A DNA stretch of 64,000 nucleotides. It comes from an uncultured Paenibacillaceae bacterium (GTDB lineage: Bacteria; Bacillota; Bacilli; Aneurinibacillales; Aneurinibacillaceae). The stretch covers positions 124,001 to 188,000 of the forward strand of contig CAMLDI010000002.1 in NCBI GenBank assembly GCA_946478845.1, read 5' to 3'. The position numbers and the translations under genes were made by a program. This document shows, one piece after another, positions 24,033 to 36,641 of the stretch (its first letter is position 1; every line of letters starts with the position of its first letter). The notes beneath the pieces were generated by a model, which made no database searches, was not told where the DNA came from, and was given only the letters and a program-made list of their open reading frames with translations.

Positions 24033-24047
24033 TATTAGAAAACACAA

Positions 24048-24078
24048 CTCACCATTGAAGAATGGTGGGTTTTTTTGT
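24048..24078 (+). terminator. Terminator of the tRNA cluster
   Basis: CTCACCATT-gaag-AATGGTGGG followed by seven T, directly after tRNA-Ser(TGA). Confidence 0.88.
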
Positions 24079-24101
24079 GTCTTCGAATTTCCAATATTTT
24101 T

Positions 24102-24149
24102 TTAAATAGAACTTAACACATCCTTAACCTTTTATACTTGTTATCAAGT
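24102..24149 (+). promoter_or_regulatory. PhoP-type box, -10 and palindrome ahead of the phn operon
   Basis: TTAAAT, TTAACA and TTAACC start at 24102, 24113 and 24124, exactly 11 bases apart, which is the spacing of Bacillus PhoP direct repeats. TATACT (24133-24138) is a suitable -10. Overlapping the likely start is a perfect ACTTG-TTAT-CAAGT palindrome (24136-24149), a candidate PhnF operator. Phosphate-starvation control is therefore likely. Confidence 0.65.
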
Positions 24150-24186
24150 TAATCTGAGAGAAGAAATTTTGTATAGGAGGTCTAAT

Positions 24187-25062
24187 ATGAAAGTTGAGTT
24201 ACACTGTCATACTAATATTTCAGATTGTCCTCTTTCAAATGATGAAGTGATGTCTTTAGCTTTAGAACAAGGTGTTATGCACGTAGCGATTACAAATCAT
24301 GATACAACAAAGGGTCTTATAGAAGCGATTGAAACAGGCAAGAGATATGGAATAGAAGTTATTCCAGGAATTGAGATTTCAGGGTTTGATTATGATTGGG
24401 AGAGACGTGTTCATATTCTTGGTTATTTTATTGAGCCAGGCCATGAGGCTATTGAAACACTCTGTAAACCTTTAAGAGAAAAAAGACATGAAAATTCTTT
24501 TGAAATGGTTCAGCGGTTAATTGAAGTAGGCTATAACATAACATGGGATCGTTGTATGGAACTTGCTAATGGAGGAACGGGGGTATTTAAGCAGCATATC
24601 ATGCATGCTCTAATAGAGGCAGAATATACGGATTCTATTTATAGTGAGCTTTATAAAAAATTGTTTAGTCGTGGACAAAATGGCGAAAAGCAAGGTCTTG
24701 CTAATATTCCAATGGAATATGTGGATGCAAAGCTTGCTATTCAAGCTATTTATAATGCCGGGGGAGTGCCTGTACTGGCTCATCCAGGTCAATATAGCAA
24801 TTTTGAAATGGTACCGAATCTGGTAGAAGCAGGATTGCAGGGAATAGAGGTTTGGCATCCTTCCCATCATGAAGGGCATGAAGGACAAGCTATGAAATTA
24901 TCAAAGGAATACGATTTAATCATGACAGGTGGGTCTGATTTCCATGGAGCTTATGGGGAAAAACCCGTACTTCTTGGAAGTAAGAGTTCAGGAATTGAAA
25001 GCTTAGTAGCTTTAGCGGCAAGAAGAGAGAAAAGGAGTTGTACGCCCGATGTCATTTATTAA
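24187..25062 (+). CDS. PHP-domain phosphoesterase, probable PhnPP
   Basis: 291-aa PHP-family metal hydrolase with HCHTNISDCPLSNDE at the N-terminus, TNHDTTKG, PGIEIS and a C-terminal TGGSDFHG motif, all metal-ligand signatures of the family. AGGAGG precedes ATG 24187. As first gene of a phn operon that lacks phnP and phnN, it is best read as the PHP-type phosphodiesterase characterised from Eggerthella lenta (PhnPP), which turns phosphoribosyl 1,2-cyclic phosphate into ribose 5-phosphate by two successive hydrolyses. That assignment rests on context and family; the fold alone does not prove it. Confidence 0.8.
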   Translation: MKVELHCHTNISDCPLSNDEVMSLALEQGVMHVAITNHDTTKGLIEAIETGKRYGIEVIPGIEISGFDYDWERRVHILGYFIEPGHEAIETLCKPLREKRHENSFEMVQRLIEVGYNITWDRCMELANGGTGVFKQHIMHALIEAEYTDSIYSELYKKLFSRGQNGEKQGLANIPMEYVDAKLAIQAIYNAGGVPVLAHPGQYSNFEMVPNLVEAGLQGIEVWHPSHHEGHEGQAMKLSKEYDLIMTGGSDFHGAYGEKPVLLGSKSSGIESLVALAARREKRSCTPDVIY

Positions 25063-25690
25063 TCAGTTGAAGTATGAAAGAAAACTATCAATCATACCCT
25101 TCATCCAAGATTCTAGTGATGTGATCAATAGCTATGCAGGTGAATGGGTATCCATTGGTGCTCACAATAAAATAATCGAATCTAAATTTGGAGATTATAC
25201 CTACACCATGGATGATGTGACTGTTAACTATACGGAAATAGGTAAATTTTGTTCCATTGCGTCTCATGCTTGTATTAATCCTGTGCAACATCCCATGAAC
25301 CGTGTTACCCAGCACCACATGACCTATCGAAAGGATGCTTATCGATTTGCAGATAAAGATGATAAAGATATTTTTGATTGGCGGCGTACACAAACTGTTA
25401 AAATTGGACATGATGTTTGGATTGGCCACGGTGCCATTATTATGAAAGGTGTAAAGATTGGAACAGGAGCAGTCATTGGCTCTGGGTCCATTGTAACAAA
25501 AGATGTTGAGCCTTATACGATTGTAGTGGGAGTTCCTGCCGGACCTATTAAAAGAAGGTTTTCAAAAGAGATCGCTGACGAATTACTGAAAATTGCCTGG
25601 TGGGATTGGTCACGAGAAAAACTTGAAAACCATTTTGATGAACTTAATGATATAGAAGCTTTTATTAAAAACCACAGGGAATCACTTTAA
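25049..25690 (+). CDS. Phosphonate-associated hexapeptide-repeat acyltransferase
   Basis: 213-aa left-handed beta-helix acyltransferase (CatB/xenobiotic acetyltransferase type). Hexapeptide repeats run through about 70-170 (VKIGHDVWIGHGAIIMKGVKIG, then GTGAVIGSGSIVTKDV). A hexapeptide transferase with such a loop (HPMNRVTQHH) is a known companion of phn operons. AAAGGAG precedes ATG and the start overlaps the PHP gene end by 14 bases. It may acetylate aminophosphonates or a by-product, as PhnO does with a different fold; the substrate is inferred only. Confidence 0.82.
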   Translation: MSFINQLKYERKLSIIPFIQDSSDVINSYAGEWVSIGAHNKIIESKFGDYTYTMDDVTVNYTEIGKFCSIASHACINPVQHPMNRVTQHHMTYRKDAYRFADKDDKDIFDWRRTQTVKIGHDVWIGHGAIIMKGVKIGTGAVIGSGSIVTKDVEPYTIVVGVPAGPIKRRFSKEIADELLKIAWWDWSREKLENHFDELNDIEAFIKNHRESL

Positions 25691-34961: not shown

Positions 34962-35833
34962 TGGAGGCAAATGAACAAGTTAAAAAGGTTCCATCCCTAG
35001 CTGAACATATACTAAAACCTCGCCAACTAAAACGATTGGGAATAAGACCGTTGAACAAAGCTACATTTGTGACAAGGGCAACACTTGTTATACTTTTTAT
35101 ATTTACGTTATACGCCTTTTTCACCTTTGACTACAAGGACCTAGATATGATCGAAGCAGGGTTAGCGACAATTGACAATCTTAAAACTGTTTTTTTAGAG
35201 CCAACTCTTGAACATTTCACATTTAAAAATGCTCTTTTTCAAGTATTTGTGACCTTAGGACTTGCTTTTTTAACAACTTTATTTGGAGCTATTATCGCTG
35301 TAATTTTCGGCTTGTTAGCTGCTCAAAATTTATCCTCTAAACGTGTTTCTTTAGTAATTAAGGGATTTGTCGCTATTATAAGAGCCGTACCAACTGTTCT
35401 TTGGGTATTAATATTTGCCGTTGCAGCAGGCCTTGGAAGTGTAGCTGCTGTTATTGGAATGACTTTTCATTCTGTAAGTTACTTAATTAAAGCCTATTCC
35501 GAGTCATTTGAAGAAATAGACAAAGGGGTAATTGAAGCTCTTGAAGCAAGCGGTGCAAACTGGTGGCAGATTGTTTCTCAAGCTGTTATTCCCTCTTCTA
35601 TCACATACATGATTTCATGGACATTCCTTCGTTTTGAAATTAACTTTGCTGTAGCAGTTGCAATGGGTGCAGTTGCAGGTGCTGGGGGAATCGGATTTGA
35701 AATGTTCATGGCAAGCAACTTCTATTTAGATATGAGTGAAATTGGAGCGATTACTTATTTTATCTTAATTGTAGCCATTCTCCTTGAAATTATTGCTATA
35801 AACATAAAAAGAAAGTATACAATGCTCCCATAG
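34961..35833 (+). CDS. phnE: Phosphonate importer permease PhnE (second copy)
   Basis: 290 aa, about six helices with a longer cytoplasmic N-terminus (first 45 residues). EAA loop GVIEALEASGANWWQIVSQAVIP; FVAIIRAVPTVLW is also typical. The ATG overlaps the stop of the first permease (TAATG). Last gene of the phn operon, followed by a terminator. Confidence 0.92.
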   Translation: MEANEQVKKVPSLAEHILKPRQLKRLGIRPLNKATFVTRATLVILFIFTLYAFFTFDYKDLDMIEAGLATIDNLKTVFLEPTLEHFTFKNALFQVFVTLGLAFLTTLFGAIIAVIFGLLAAQNLSSKRVSLVIKGFVAIIRAVPTVLWVLIFAVAAGLGSVAAVIGMTFHSVSYLIKAYSESFEEIDKGVIEALEASGANWWQIVSQAVIPSSITYMISWTFLRFEINFAVAVAMGAVAGAGGIGFEMFMASNFYLDMSEIGAITYFILIVAILLEIIAINIKRKYTMLP

Positions 35834-35870
35834 GATGAGACACACGAAAAAGTAATAGAATTGAAAAGCG

Positions 35871-35913
35871 CTCGTAGTTCTGCATGACCTGCACGACTAC
35901 GGGTTTTATTTTA
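35871..35913 (+). terminator. Terminator of the phn operon
   Basis: CTCGTAGT-tctgca and tgcac-GACTACGGG form an imperfect long hairpin followed by TTTTATTTTA. Confidence 0.75.
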
Positions 35914-36097
35914 TCAAGTTATAATCTATGATTCCATGTGTGCATGGTTTGATGCTTACTTTAATACGAACAAACGAAACAACTATTAATCTGCCCATTT
36001 TTGAGTAAATTGGCTTATGATTATTTGAAATTATTAACAAAACAACTCGTATTATACATAATTTAAATTGTTCGTAAAAAAAGGAGGAATGTAGCCT

Positions 36098-36508
36098 ATG
36101 CATTATTACAATCCGTATCATTATAATCCTTATTATTACAATCCGTATTATCAAAACAGGATCAATGAACAACAGGAGTTTTCAAGGTCAGCTAAGCCGC
36201 TTCCGGAAGCTGTGGCTATCAACGCAGGTGAAATTCGTGGAGGTCGTGCATTTACTTCTGATATCAGAGACCGTCAAGGGTTCGAGTGGCGCATAACAGG
36301 ATTCGATGGTATTGTTAATTCCTCGAGCAAGGTGTTTGTATCGATTTCTGAAATAGGTATTTCCGGCGGTCAAGTAAAGCCGTTCATGGGAGCTGCAAGC
36401 ATGCAGGTCCATAACGTTGTTCCACAAGATGACAGTTCAGTAATTGTACGGGGGCATATCGGCTGGGAGAGTGATCTCCAGGCGCGACTTTCGTTCGTAG
36501 TGTTTTAG
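36098..36508 (+). CDS. Tyr/Asn-rich N-terminus protein, 136 aa, unknown
   Basis: The first 25 residues are built of Tyr-Asn-Pro-Tyr units (HYNPYHYNPYYYNPYYQN), followed by a compact beta-rich domain (GFEWRITGFDGIVNSSSKVFVSISE, HIGWESDLQARLSFVVF). GGAGG precedes ATG. Tyr-rich repeats occur in some spore coat and surface proteins, but I do not recognise this family and do not assign that role. It lies inside the tRNA-bounded island, after the phn terminator; the preceding 264-base gap (35834-36097) holds only that terminator and AT-rich sequence. Confidence 0.65.
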   Translation: MHYYNPYHYNPYYYNPYYQNRINEQQEFSRSAKPLPEAVAINAGEIRGGRAFTSDIRDRQGFEWRITGFDGIVNSSSKVFVSISEIGISGGQVKPFMGAASMQVHNVVPQDDSSVIVRGHIGWESDLQARLSFVVF

Positions 36509-36544
36509 CGGCGGTTGAGAGATAAACGTAGCATATCCATTAAA

Positions 36545-36641
36545 TAAAAACAGCGAAGAGTAATCCCATGCGGGTTTTAATCCTGCTTTTTCGGCCAAAT
36601 TAAAAAACTCACCATTTTCAACGGTGAGTTTTTTTGTATAT
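36545..36641 (+). repeat. Decayed copy of tRNA-Ser(TGA) 3' half plus terminator
   Basis: Aligned with 23995-24032, the part from 36565 to 36602 is identical at 30 of 38 positions, and most changes are C to T. A hairpin CTCACCATT...ACGGTGAG with T run follows at 36607-36638, as at the real gene. The 5' half of the tRNA is not present. It reads as a displaced attachment end or a vestigial tRNA. Confidence 0.65.

Follow-up and report, generated by a model that had tools for sequence, protein, structure and literature searches.

According to the Islander report (PMC4383910), islands targeted to tRNA genes show an intact tRNA gene with a fragment of its 3' end downstream in the same orientation, carry metabolic cargo, and can be compared with a cargo-free relative; the displaced fragment is the footprint of a tyrosine integrase, whose crossover subsites include the anticodon loop. 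In the ssrA islands of Dehalococcoides, for example vcr-GI, a catabolic operon follows an RNA gene whose 3' end recurs downstream, and events are stacked (PMC3146451); in marine HIMB59, a carbon-phosphorus (C-P) lyase (phn) operon lies in a flexible island for which frequent horizontal transfer was suggested (PMC10734472). Here we analyzed a comparable locus, a phn operon (24196-35833) directly behind a tRNA-Ser(TGA) gene, in a 64,000-nucleotide (nt) stretch from an uncultured Paenibacillaceae bacterium (contig CAMLDI010000002.1, positions 124,001 to 188,000). The whole stretch is called the window, and positions refer to it. A decayed copy of the tRNA 3' half, hereafter the scar, lies downstream of the operon, and the closest relative found, genome G093, has no phn at this place.

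The locus shares the above traits with the Islander islands, and the spacing of 12.5 kb between the tRNA and its fragment, both in the same orientation, fits the limits of 2 to 200 kb given there. It differs from them in that no integrase is present, the fragment is worn, foreign DNA continues beyond the fragment, and the terminator lies inside the similarity of the two copies; thus, of what Islander looks for, an intact tRNA and a displaced 3' fragment are found, whereas an integrase between them and a fragment serving as the endpoint are not (PMC4383910). A relative with a cargo-free site, which the Islander algorithm does not call for, is present here in G093 alone. In Dehalococcoides, 16 of 31 islands have an integration module and repeats are many (PMC3146451), whereas here there is one scar and no module. 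For the HIMB59 islands, whose borders are reported to have neither an insertion sequence nor a tRNA, homologous recombination was suggested (PMC10734472). A 551-kb plasmid of Mesobacillus foraminis (NZ_CP033045.1) carries a phn operon with the same gene order, from the PHP-domain gene to the second PhnE permease, and the same promoter layout, although it lies near an integrase gene and not beside tRNA-Ser(TGA). The event is ordinary in kind, and its borders and timing differ from those of an earlier reading made from the letters alone (the sequence-only reading), in which the phn operon and a Tyr-rich gene had entered as one unit between the two tRNA copies and had later lost their integrase. 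The tRNA genes, the scar, and the left border are arranged as follows.

23704-23795, tRNA-Ser(GCT) (ARAGORN and Rfam)
23823-23899, tRNA-Met (ARAGORN and Rfam)
23944-24032, plus strand, intact tRNA-Ser(TGA), identical to the G093 copy (ARAGORN and Rfam)
24033-24080, plus strand, tRNA spacer and intrinsic terminator (about 24046-24080: hairpin 24046-24071, T-run), matching the G093 terminator
24081-24112, unstranded, left junction; G093 similarity stops at 24080, and the operon control region starts at 24113
36545-36641, plus strand, scar; decayed tRNA-Ser 3' half (36545-36597) and terminator (to 36641)

We confirmed that the tRNA scar is real. As had been noted from the letters, an intact tRNA-Ser(TGA) with its terminator precedes the operon, and a degraded copy of its 3' half with a hairpin follows it. 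The best ungapped stretch matches at 30 of 38 nt (24000 versus 36565), and the gapped copy starts at the anticodon loop (23979 and 36545) and closes with the terminator T-run (24080 and 36641), with 75 matches and 18 substitutions over 93 aligned positions, gaps excluded. The local alignment between tRNA and scar scored 61, the maximum among 1,000 mononucleotide shuffles of the target being 27, and a query consisting of the tRNA 3' half plus terminator also scored 61 against the scar. Among the 60 best places listed in 2.26 Mb of fetched loci, all those scoring above 32 were tRNA genes or clusters or two viral tRNA-Ser 3' ends, and the best place without a tRNA scored 32 (locus L013). A chance match was rejected on the basis of the shuffles and the 2.26-Mb control; the halves are weak individually, each scoring only modestly above the best other match in the window (tRNA half, 32; terminator half, 34; best other window match, 26 in both cases), and chance is excluded because they form a colinear pair on the same strand. 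A longer tRNA duplication, named in the sequence-only reading as something that would speak against it, was likewise rejected: similarity is confined to the part from about the anticodon loop to the terminator, and neither the tRNA 5' half nor the upstream tRNAs are included (133 and 837 of 1,000 shuffles, respectively, equaled or exceeded the scores). The scar terminator folds well, into a hairpin of -13.9 kcal/mol (z -5.7).

When 21516-24100 was compared with DNA of the whole class, all 398 genomes gave some match, and G093 was the single standout, with 88% identity in ilvD and 95% in the tRNA cluster; ilvD in the next genome was 76% identical. Family and order hereafter denote groupings around G093. 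Its contig C60 (locus L131, 15.7 kb) aligns with small gaps to 14990-24080 and 38400-42351, and between these the scar alone aligns, to the tRNA. The tRNA-Ser genes are identical, the terminators agree at 97.9% of 47 aligned bases, and in G093 they are followed directly by a gene for an 816-residue SLH protein, an isochorismatase-type gene, and sigI and rsgI homologues. Thus, the empty site that the sequence-only reading suggested looking for was found, syntenic on both sides and without phn at tRNA-Ser, although the gene behind the tRNA is the SLH gene and not the DUF2493 gene that had been predicted.

The nonshared block covers 24081-38399 (14.3 kb). On the left, the similarity of the tRNA copy to the scar and that to G093 both stop just behind the terminator T-run. 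On the right, shared DNA restarts at 38400, 1.76 kb beyond the scar, and the scar is therefore not the island endpoint, nor does it bracket the unit as had been proposed, since foreign DNA continues to 38399. Composition, which had been recommended as a check, agrees only in part: GC content at third codon positions (GC3) averages 0.282 in the 14 operon genes versus 0.350 in 27 flanking genes (Mann-Whitney p 3.7e-4), but the native SLH stump, sigI, rsgI, and 140-residue-protein genes to the right are equally low (0.18-0.35). Composition was rejected as proof of a border, since beyond 38400 native genes are just as rich in AT.

We consider it very improbable that phn and the rest of the block are ancestral and were lost in G093. 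This would be helped by there being a single close relative on hand and by the Jukes-Cantor (JC) distance of the scar, 0.224, which lies within the per-lineage range of 0.17-0.38 and makes an older age possible. Against this, an intact 816-residue SLH frame stands directly behind the G093 terminator where the window keeps a stump, and PhnJ occurs in 1 of 11 family genomes (G128, not G093), whose operon is not sister to that of the window.

The G093 isochorismatase-type gene (L131:3407-3946), which lies between the SLH gene and sigI, is missing in the window (39088-39147). In three further loci of the family (L132, L134, and L136), the order ilvD, tRNA-Ser, ftsK is kept and the content between tRNA-Ser and the ftsK/spoIIIE-type gene varies, so that this interval looks like a variable site among family relatives; in L132 it holds, by eye, an MMPL-like transporter in three overlapping frames.

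The phn operon was most likely acquired horizontally, as judged from its absence in G093, its patchy presence, and the phn tree, and not from identity. PhnJ was detected in 24 of the 398 class genomes, in addition to the scarcity within the family given above. We fetched 20-kb stretches, or as much as the contig held, for 20 PhnJ genomes together with the G128 contig, leaving out G091, G033, G064, and the second copy of G399. In a FastTree tree of concatenated PhnI-J-K-M-L from 22 operons including that of the window (L193, without a PhnK or PhnL match, was excluded), the window was sister to the M. foraminis plasmid operon (support 1.000, 81.2% identity), and G128 (76.7% identity) fell into a neighboring group apart from the window. 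The window hence joins M. foraminis and not G128 of the same family, which may set the phn phylogeny at odds with kinship. The order PHP, hexapeptide, GntR, GHIJKMLDCE1E2 also occurs in L175, L177, and the M. foraminis plasmid, and a similar order occurs in L176, which is cut by the contig end and whose hexapeptide gene has no match. The PhnJ proteins of the window and M. foraminis share 83.7% identity; IlvD identity was tried as a yardstick for this value and dropped because its range is too wide. The earlier claim of an entry from outside is thus supported for the operon, which is absent in G093 and points outside the family in the tree; the Tyr-rich gene does not look like part of the same unit.

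The nearest phn operon found, that of the M. foraminis plasmid (L194, 9086-21250), lies 3.8 kb from a phage-type integrase gene (4381-5331), and phosphate-related genes follow it.

As to the mechanism of entry, we hold it probable, though by no great measure, that an integrase-type insertion took place with the tRNA 3' half plus terminator as the core and that the right edge was rearranged afterwards. A ready-made module (PHP, TIGR03308, GntR, and phnGHIJKMLDCE1E2, with its own promoter and terminator) would have come from another Bacilli lineage and come to adjoin tRNA-Ser(TGA) directly. An integrase-type element would have carried it into the 3' end of the tRNA gene through a common core of about 100 nt, from the anticodon loop to the terminator, by which both tRNA and terminator were restored on the left; the old right copy would have decayed and the integrase would have been lost. 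The arrival of the DUF2493 and DUF4405 genes and the loss of about 590 codons from the start of the SLH gene would go back to a separate, probably later, rearrangement of the right edge. The observations underlying this proposal are the synteny, the absence in G093, the phn tree, and the scar, which has the side, strand, and tRNA half expected of a displaced 3' end. It is conceivable, although we regard it as doubtful, that an unusually long core restored tRNA and terminator together and so insulated the operon from tRNA transcription; a long core including the terminator would reconcile the insertion with the G093-like terminator on the left.

In two viral contigs (L195 and L196; Pfam domains checked on L195), an integrase gene lies 153 nt behind a tRNA-Ser(TGA) 3' end, which is an independent case in which this tRNA is a likely attachment site.

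Several points weigh against an integrase-type insertion or against our account of the acquisition as a whole. Under the simplest integrase model, the native terminator and flank would be found to the right, whereas the terminator matching G093 is the left one and not the displaced right one. The scar does have the configuration proposed for a displaced tRNA 3' end. Besides, 36642-38399 shows no similarity to what follows the terminator in G093 (score 25, reached by 126 of 200 shuffles). Two integrase queries (tblastn, E≤1) detected no trace of an integrase in either block or window, and between tRNA and fragment the longest stretch outside named open reading frames (ORFs) is 264 nt, with no integrase family among the named ORFs; a later loss of the integrase, as put forward in the sequence-only reading, is an assumption. 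Among 21 other phn loci scanned, tRNAs were present in one and were not tRNA-Ser, and in the plasmid stretch L194 the tRNA cluster about 8.5 kb before the operon has tRNA-Ser(GCT), not TGA. The empty site is seen in only one relative, on a 15.7-kb contig, and IlvD identity to named Bacilli is 68-84% (12 with contigs scanned); taken alone, this range does not make the 83.7% of PhnJ remarkable. Finally, dating is loose, since the scar could date back to the split between window and G093, and the SLH stump may be open because it is used rather than young. A general linkage of phn operons to tRNAs was rejected, 20 of the 21 loci having no tRNA.

The main rival, which we regard as unlikely but serious, dispenses with an integrase: a block of a congener, already made up of tRNA-Ser, phn, a worn tRNA piece, DUF2493, and DUF4405, would have been taken in at the tRNA cluster by homologous or illegitimate recombination, or else the 3' half and terminator would have been duplicated locally beforehand. 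The G093-like terminator on the left, the lack of an integrase trace, the foreign DNA past the scar to 38399, and the lack of tRNA-Ser in all 21 other phn loci agree with it, but a duplication of only the 3' half, starting at about the anticodon loop, is left unexplained by recombination and is the usual product of tRNA-targeted integration (PMC4383910).

Between the operon and the point where G093 similarity returns, and directly beyond it, we identified the following genes.

36098-36508, plus strand, Tyr-rich 136-residue protein gene, without a Pfam or PHROG match
36715-37080, plus strand, DUF2493/YAcAr SLOG-family gene, with DNA resembling that of 613 phage records
37212-38273, minus strand, DUF4405 protein gene
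38377-39078, plus strand, SLH-domain gene stump, 233 residues (816 in G093, L131:4017-6467)

The inclusion of the Tyr-rich gene in the phn unit, as first proposed, was not supported: its GC3 is 0.41 versus 0.28 for the operon, a terminator-like hairpin stands in front of it, and no homologue was found at E≤0.01 in the other fetched phn loci. Its family is small and has no known domain, with 17 other proteins, three of them from Bacillus halotolerans, Bacillus thuringiensis, and Priestia megaterium; one further place is on a Methylocaldum plasmid. PhnJ and the Tyr-rich, DUF2493, and DUF4405 proteins had no match in G093; the Tyr-rich and DUF4405 queries matched no searched genome, the sensitivity of these queries being unproven. 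DUF2493 was found weakly in 1 of 11 family genomes, which was not G093, the Tyr-rich protein in none of these 11, and DUF4405 in none of 15 order genomes, in which the C-terminal part of the SLH protein occurred once, in G093. Two proteins resemble the DUF4405 protein closely, P0019 with 99% identity (from a contig of 1.2 kb) and P0020 with 86% (from a contig of 30.7 kb). DNA of 36500-38400 had no match among plasmids.

These genes bear on a further explanation, tandem accretion, in which the DUF2493-DUF4405 piece arrived first and phn later at the same tRNA-Ser, the outer scar having disappeared together with the beginning of the SLH gene. The scar does separate two foreign stretches, DUF2493 is of a phage type, with matches in 613 of 50,697 phage records, and tandem islands behind ssrA of Dehalococcoides, in which 3' ends are repeated, have been described (PMC3146451). 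However, no third tRNA copy was found at the right edge near 38.4 kb, the window outside the scar and its neighbors scoring at most 26, and the right-hand piece measures just 1.76 kb and has no integrase. We therefore think that such an order of arrival is improbable.

The integrase-type insertion that we favor also involves two events at different times, and the ages of the scar and the stump are relevant to this. Half of the 18 substitutions in the scar are C>T (5) or G>A (4). The tRNA 3' half is identical in all five family loci with a match, and the terminator matched that of G093 alone among 19 loci (L131-L149), which indicates that the scar decayed as unused DNA; judged from these matches, it most likely stems from this genus. 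Fourfold-site JC distances between window and G093 are 0.59 (ilvD), 0.63 (feoB), 0.41 (sigI), 0.76 (rsgI), and 0.34 (SLH stump); these cover two lineages, giving the per-lineage range stated above, and since the distance of the scar falls within it, formation at or after the split is possible. Of the G093 protein, the stump retains about 225 C-terminal residues, some 590 codons being cut off, and it aligns without gaps over 688 nt with no stop in 222 codons. Simulated SLH copies with the change seen in the scar had 4.4 stops on average, and only 10 of 1,000 had none. The stump is thus either younger than the scar or still used, and a decayed scar beside a still-open stump points to two events.

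The operon and its control elements comprise the following features.

24113-24148, plus strand, promoter region; PhoP-box-like TTAACA-N5-TTAACC (24113-24129), seven bases, palindrome CTTGTTATCAAG (24137-24148)
24196-25062, plus strand, PHP-domain gene, phosphoribosyl 1,2-cyclic phosphate diesterase-like (NF041661, 248.7 bits, below the cutoff of 500)
25049-25690, plus strand, hexapeptide transferase of the phosphonate family TIGR03308, above cutoff
25691-26401, plus strand, GntR/UTRA regulator, PhnF-like (PhnF models below cutoff)
26402-26505, plus strand, second promoter-like module before phnG; TTAACT-N5-TTTACG (26427-26443), palindrome CTTGGCAACAAG (26452-26463)
26506-32302, plus strand, C-P lyase core phnG, phnH, phnI, phnJ, phnK, phnM, phnL
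32283-35833, plus strand, phosphonate ABC transporter phnD, phnC, phnE1, phnE2
35870-35904, plus strand, terminator-like hairpin behind the operon (-18.0 kcal/mol)

Every one of the 14 genes is an open reading frame, and the C-P lyase set is complete, with phnG, phnH, phnI, phnJ, phnK, phnL, and phnM all present and open. PhnG, PhnH, PhnI, and PhnJ (Pfam) and PhnG, PhnH, and PhnM (NCBIfam) scored above cutoff; PhnK (232/303 bits) and PhnL (248/256 bits) were below it, yet were the best matches. We take the PHP-domain gene to be of the PhnPP type. The hairpin behind the operon can end its transcript. Judged from these gene assignments, uptake and cleavage of phosphonates are the predicted functions of the phn block, which would probably be called on under phosphate starvation.

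The repeat in front of the operon, which we presume to be a PhoP box and named after that of Bacillus subtilis, suggests activation of the operon by PhoP. Its strict tandem form with N5 occurs twice in the window, at the operon promoter and at 62052 on the other strand. Across Bacilli C-P lyase operons, a layout recurs in which PhoP-box-like repeats and CTTG-N4-CAAG are separated by seven to eight bases; it precedes the operon and often phnG as well. Besides the window, this spacing was found in L175, L176, L177, and L194, and in L146 two of its three sites have it. CTTG-N4-CAAGTTA has 16 matches in 2.22 Mb, 15 of which (14 sites, 13 loci) lie in phn loci. When relaxed to CTTG-N4-CAAG, the motif was found at 28 sites, spread over 18 of the 23 phn loci (0.50 Mb), versus 18 sites in 118 other loci (1.72 Mb). 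Some of the phn-locus sites are outside promoters, including one at 55504 inside a window gene. The palindrome is probably the operator of the operon's own GntR regulator, which would act as a repressor. The palindrome is unlike the general HutC-type motif quoted in PMC4494728, and a literature search returned no paper combining PhnF, operator, GntR, and phosphonate, the motif not being met in the passages covered.

The promoter layout common to these operons provides a testable regulatory model. The locus also calls for caution in taking a tRNA fragment as the edge of an acquired block, since here the fragment lies 1.76 kb inside. With a relative that is operon-free at the same site, it illustrates a way in which a complete, self-regulated phosphonate pathway can enter a Bacilli chromosome.

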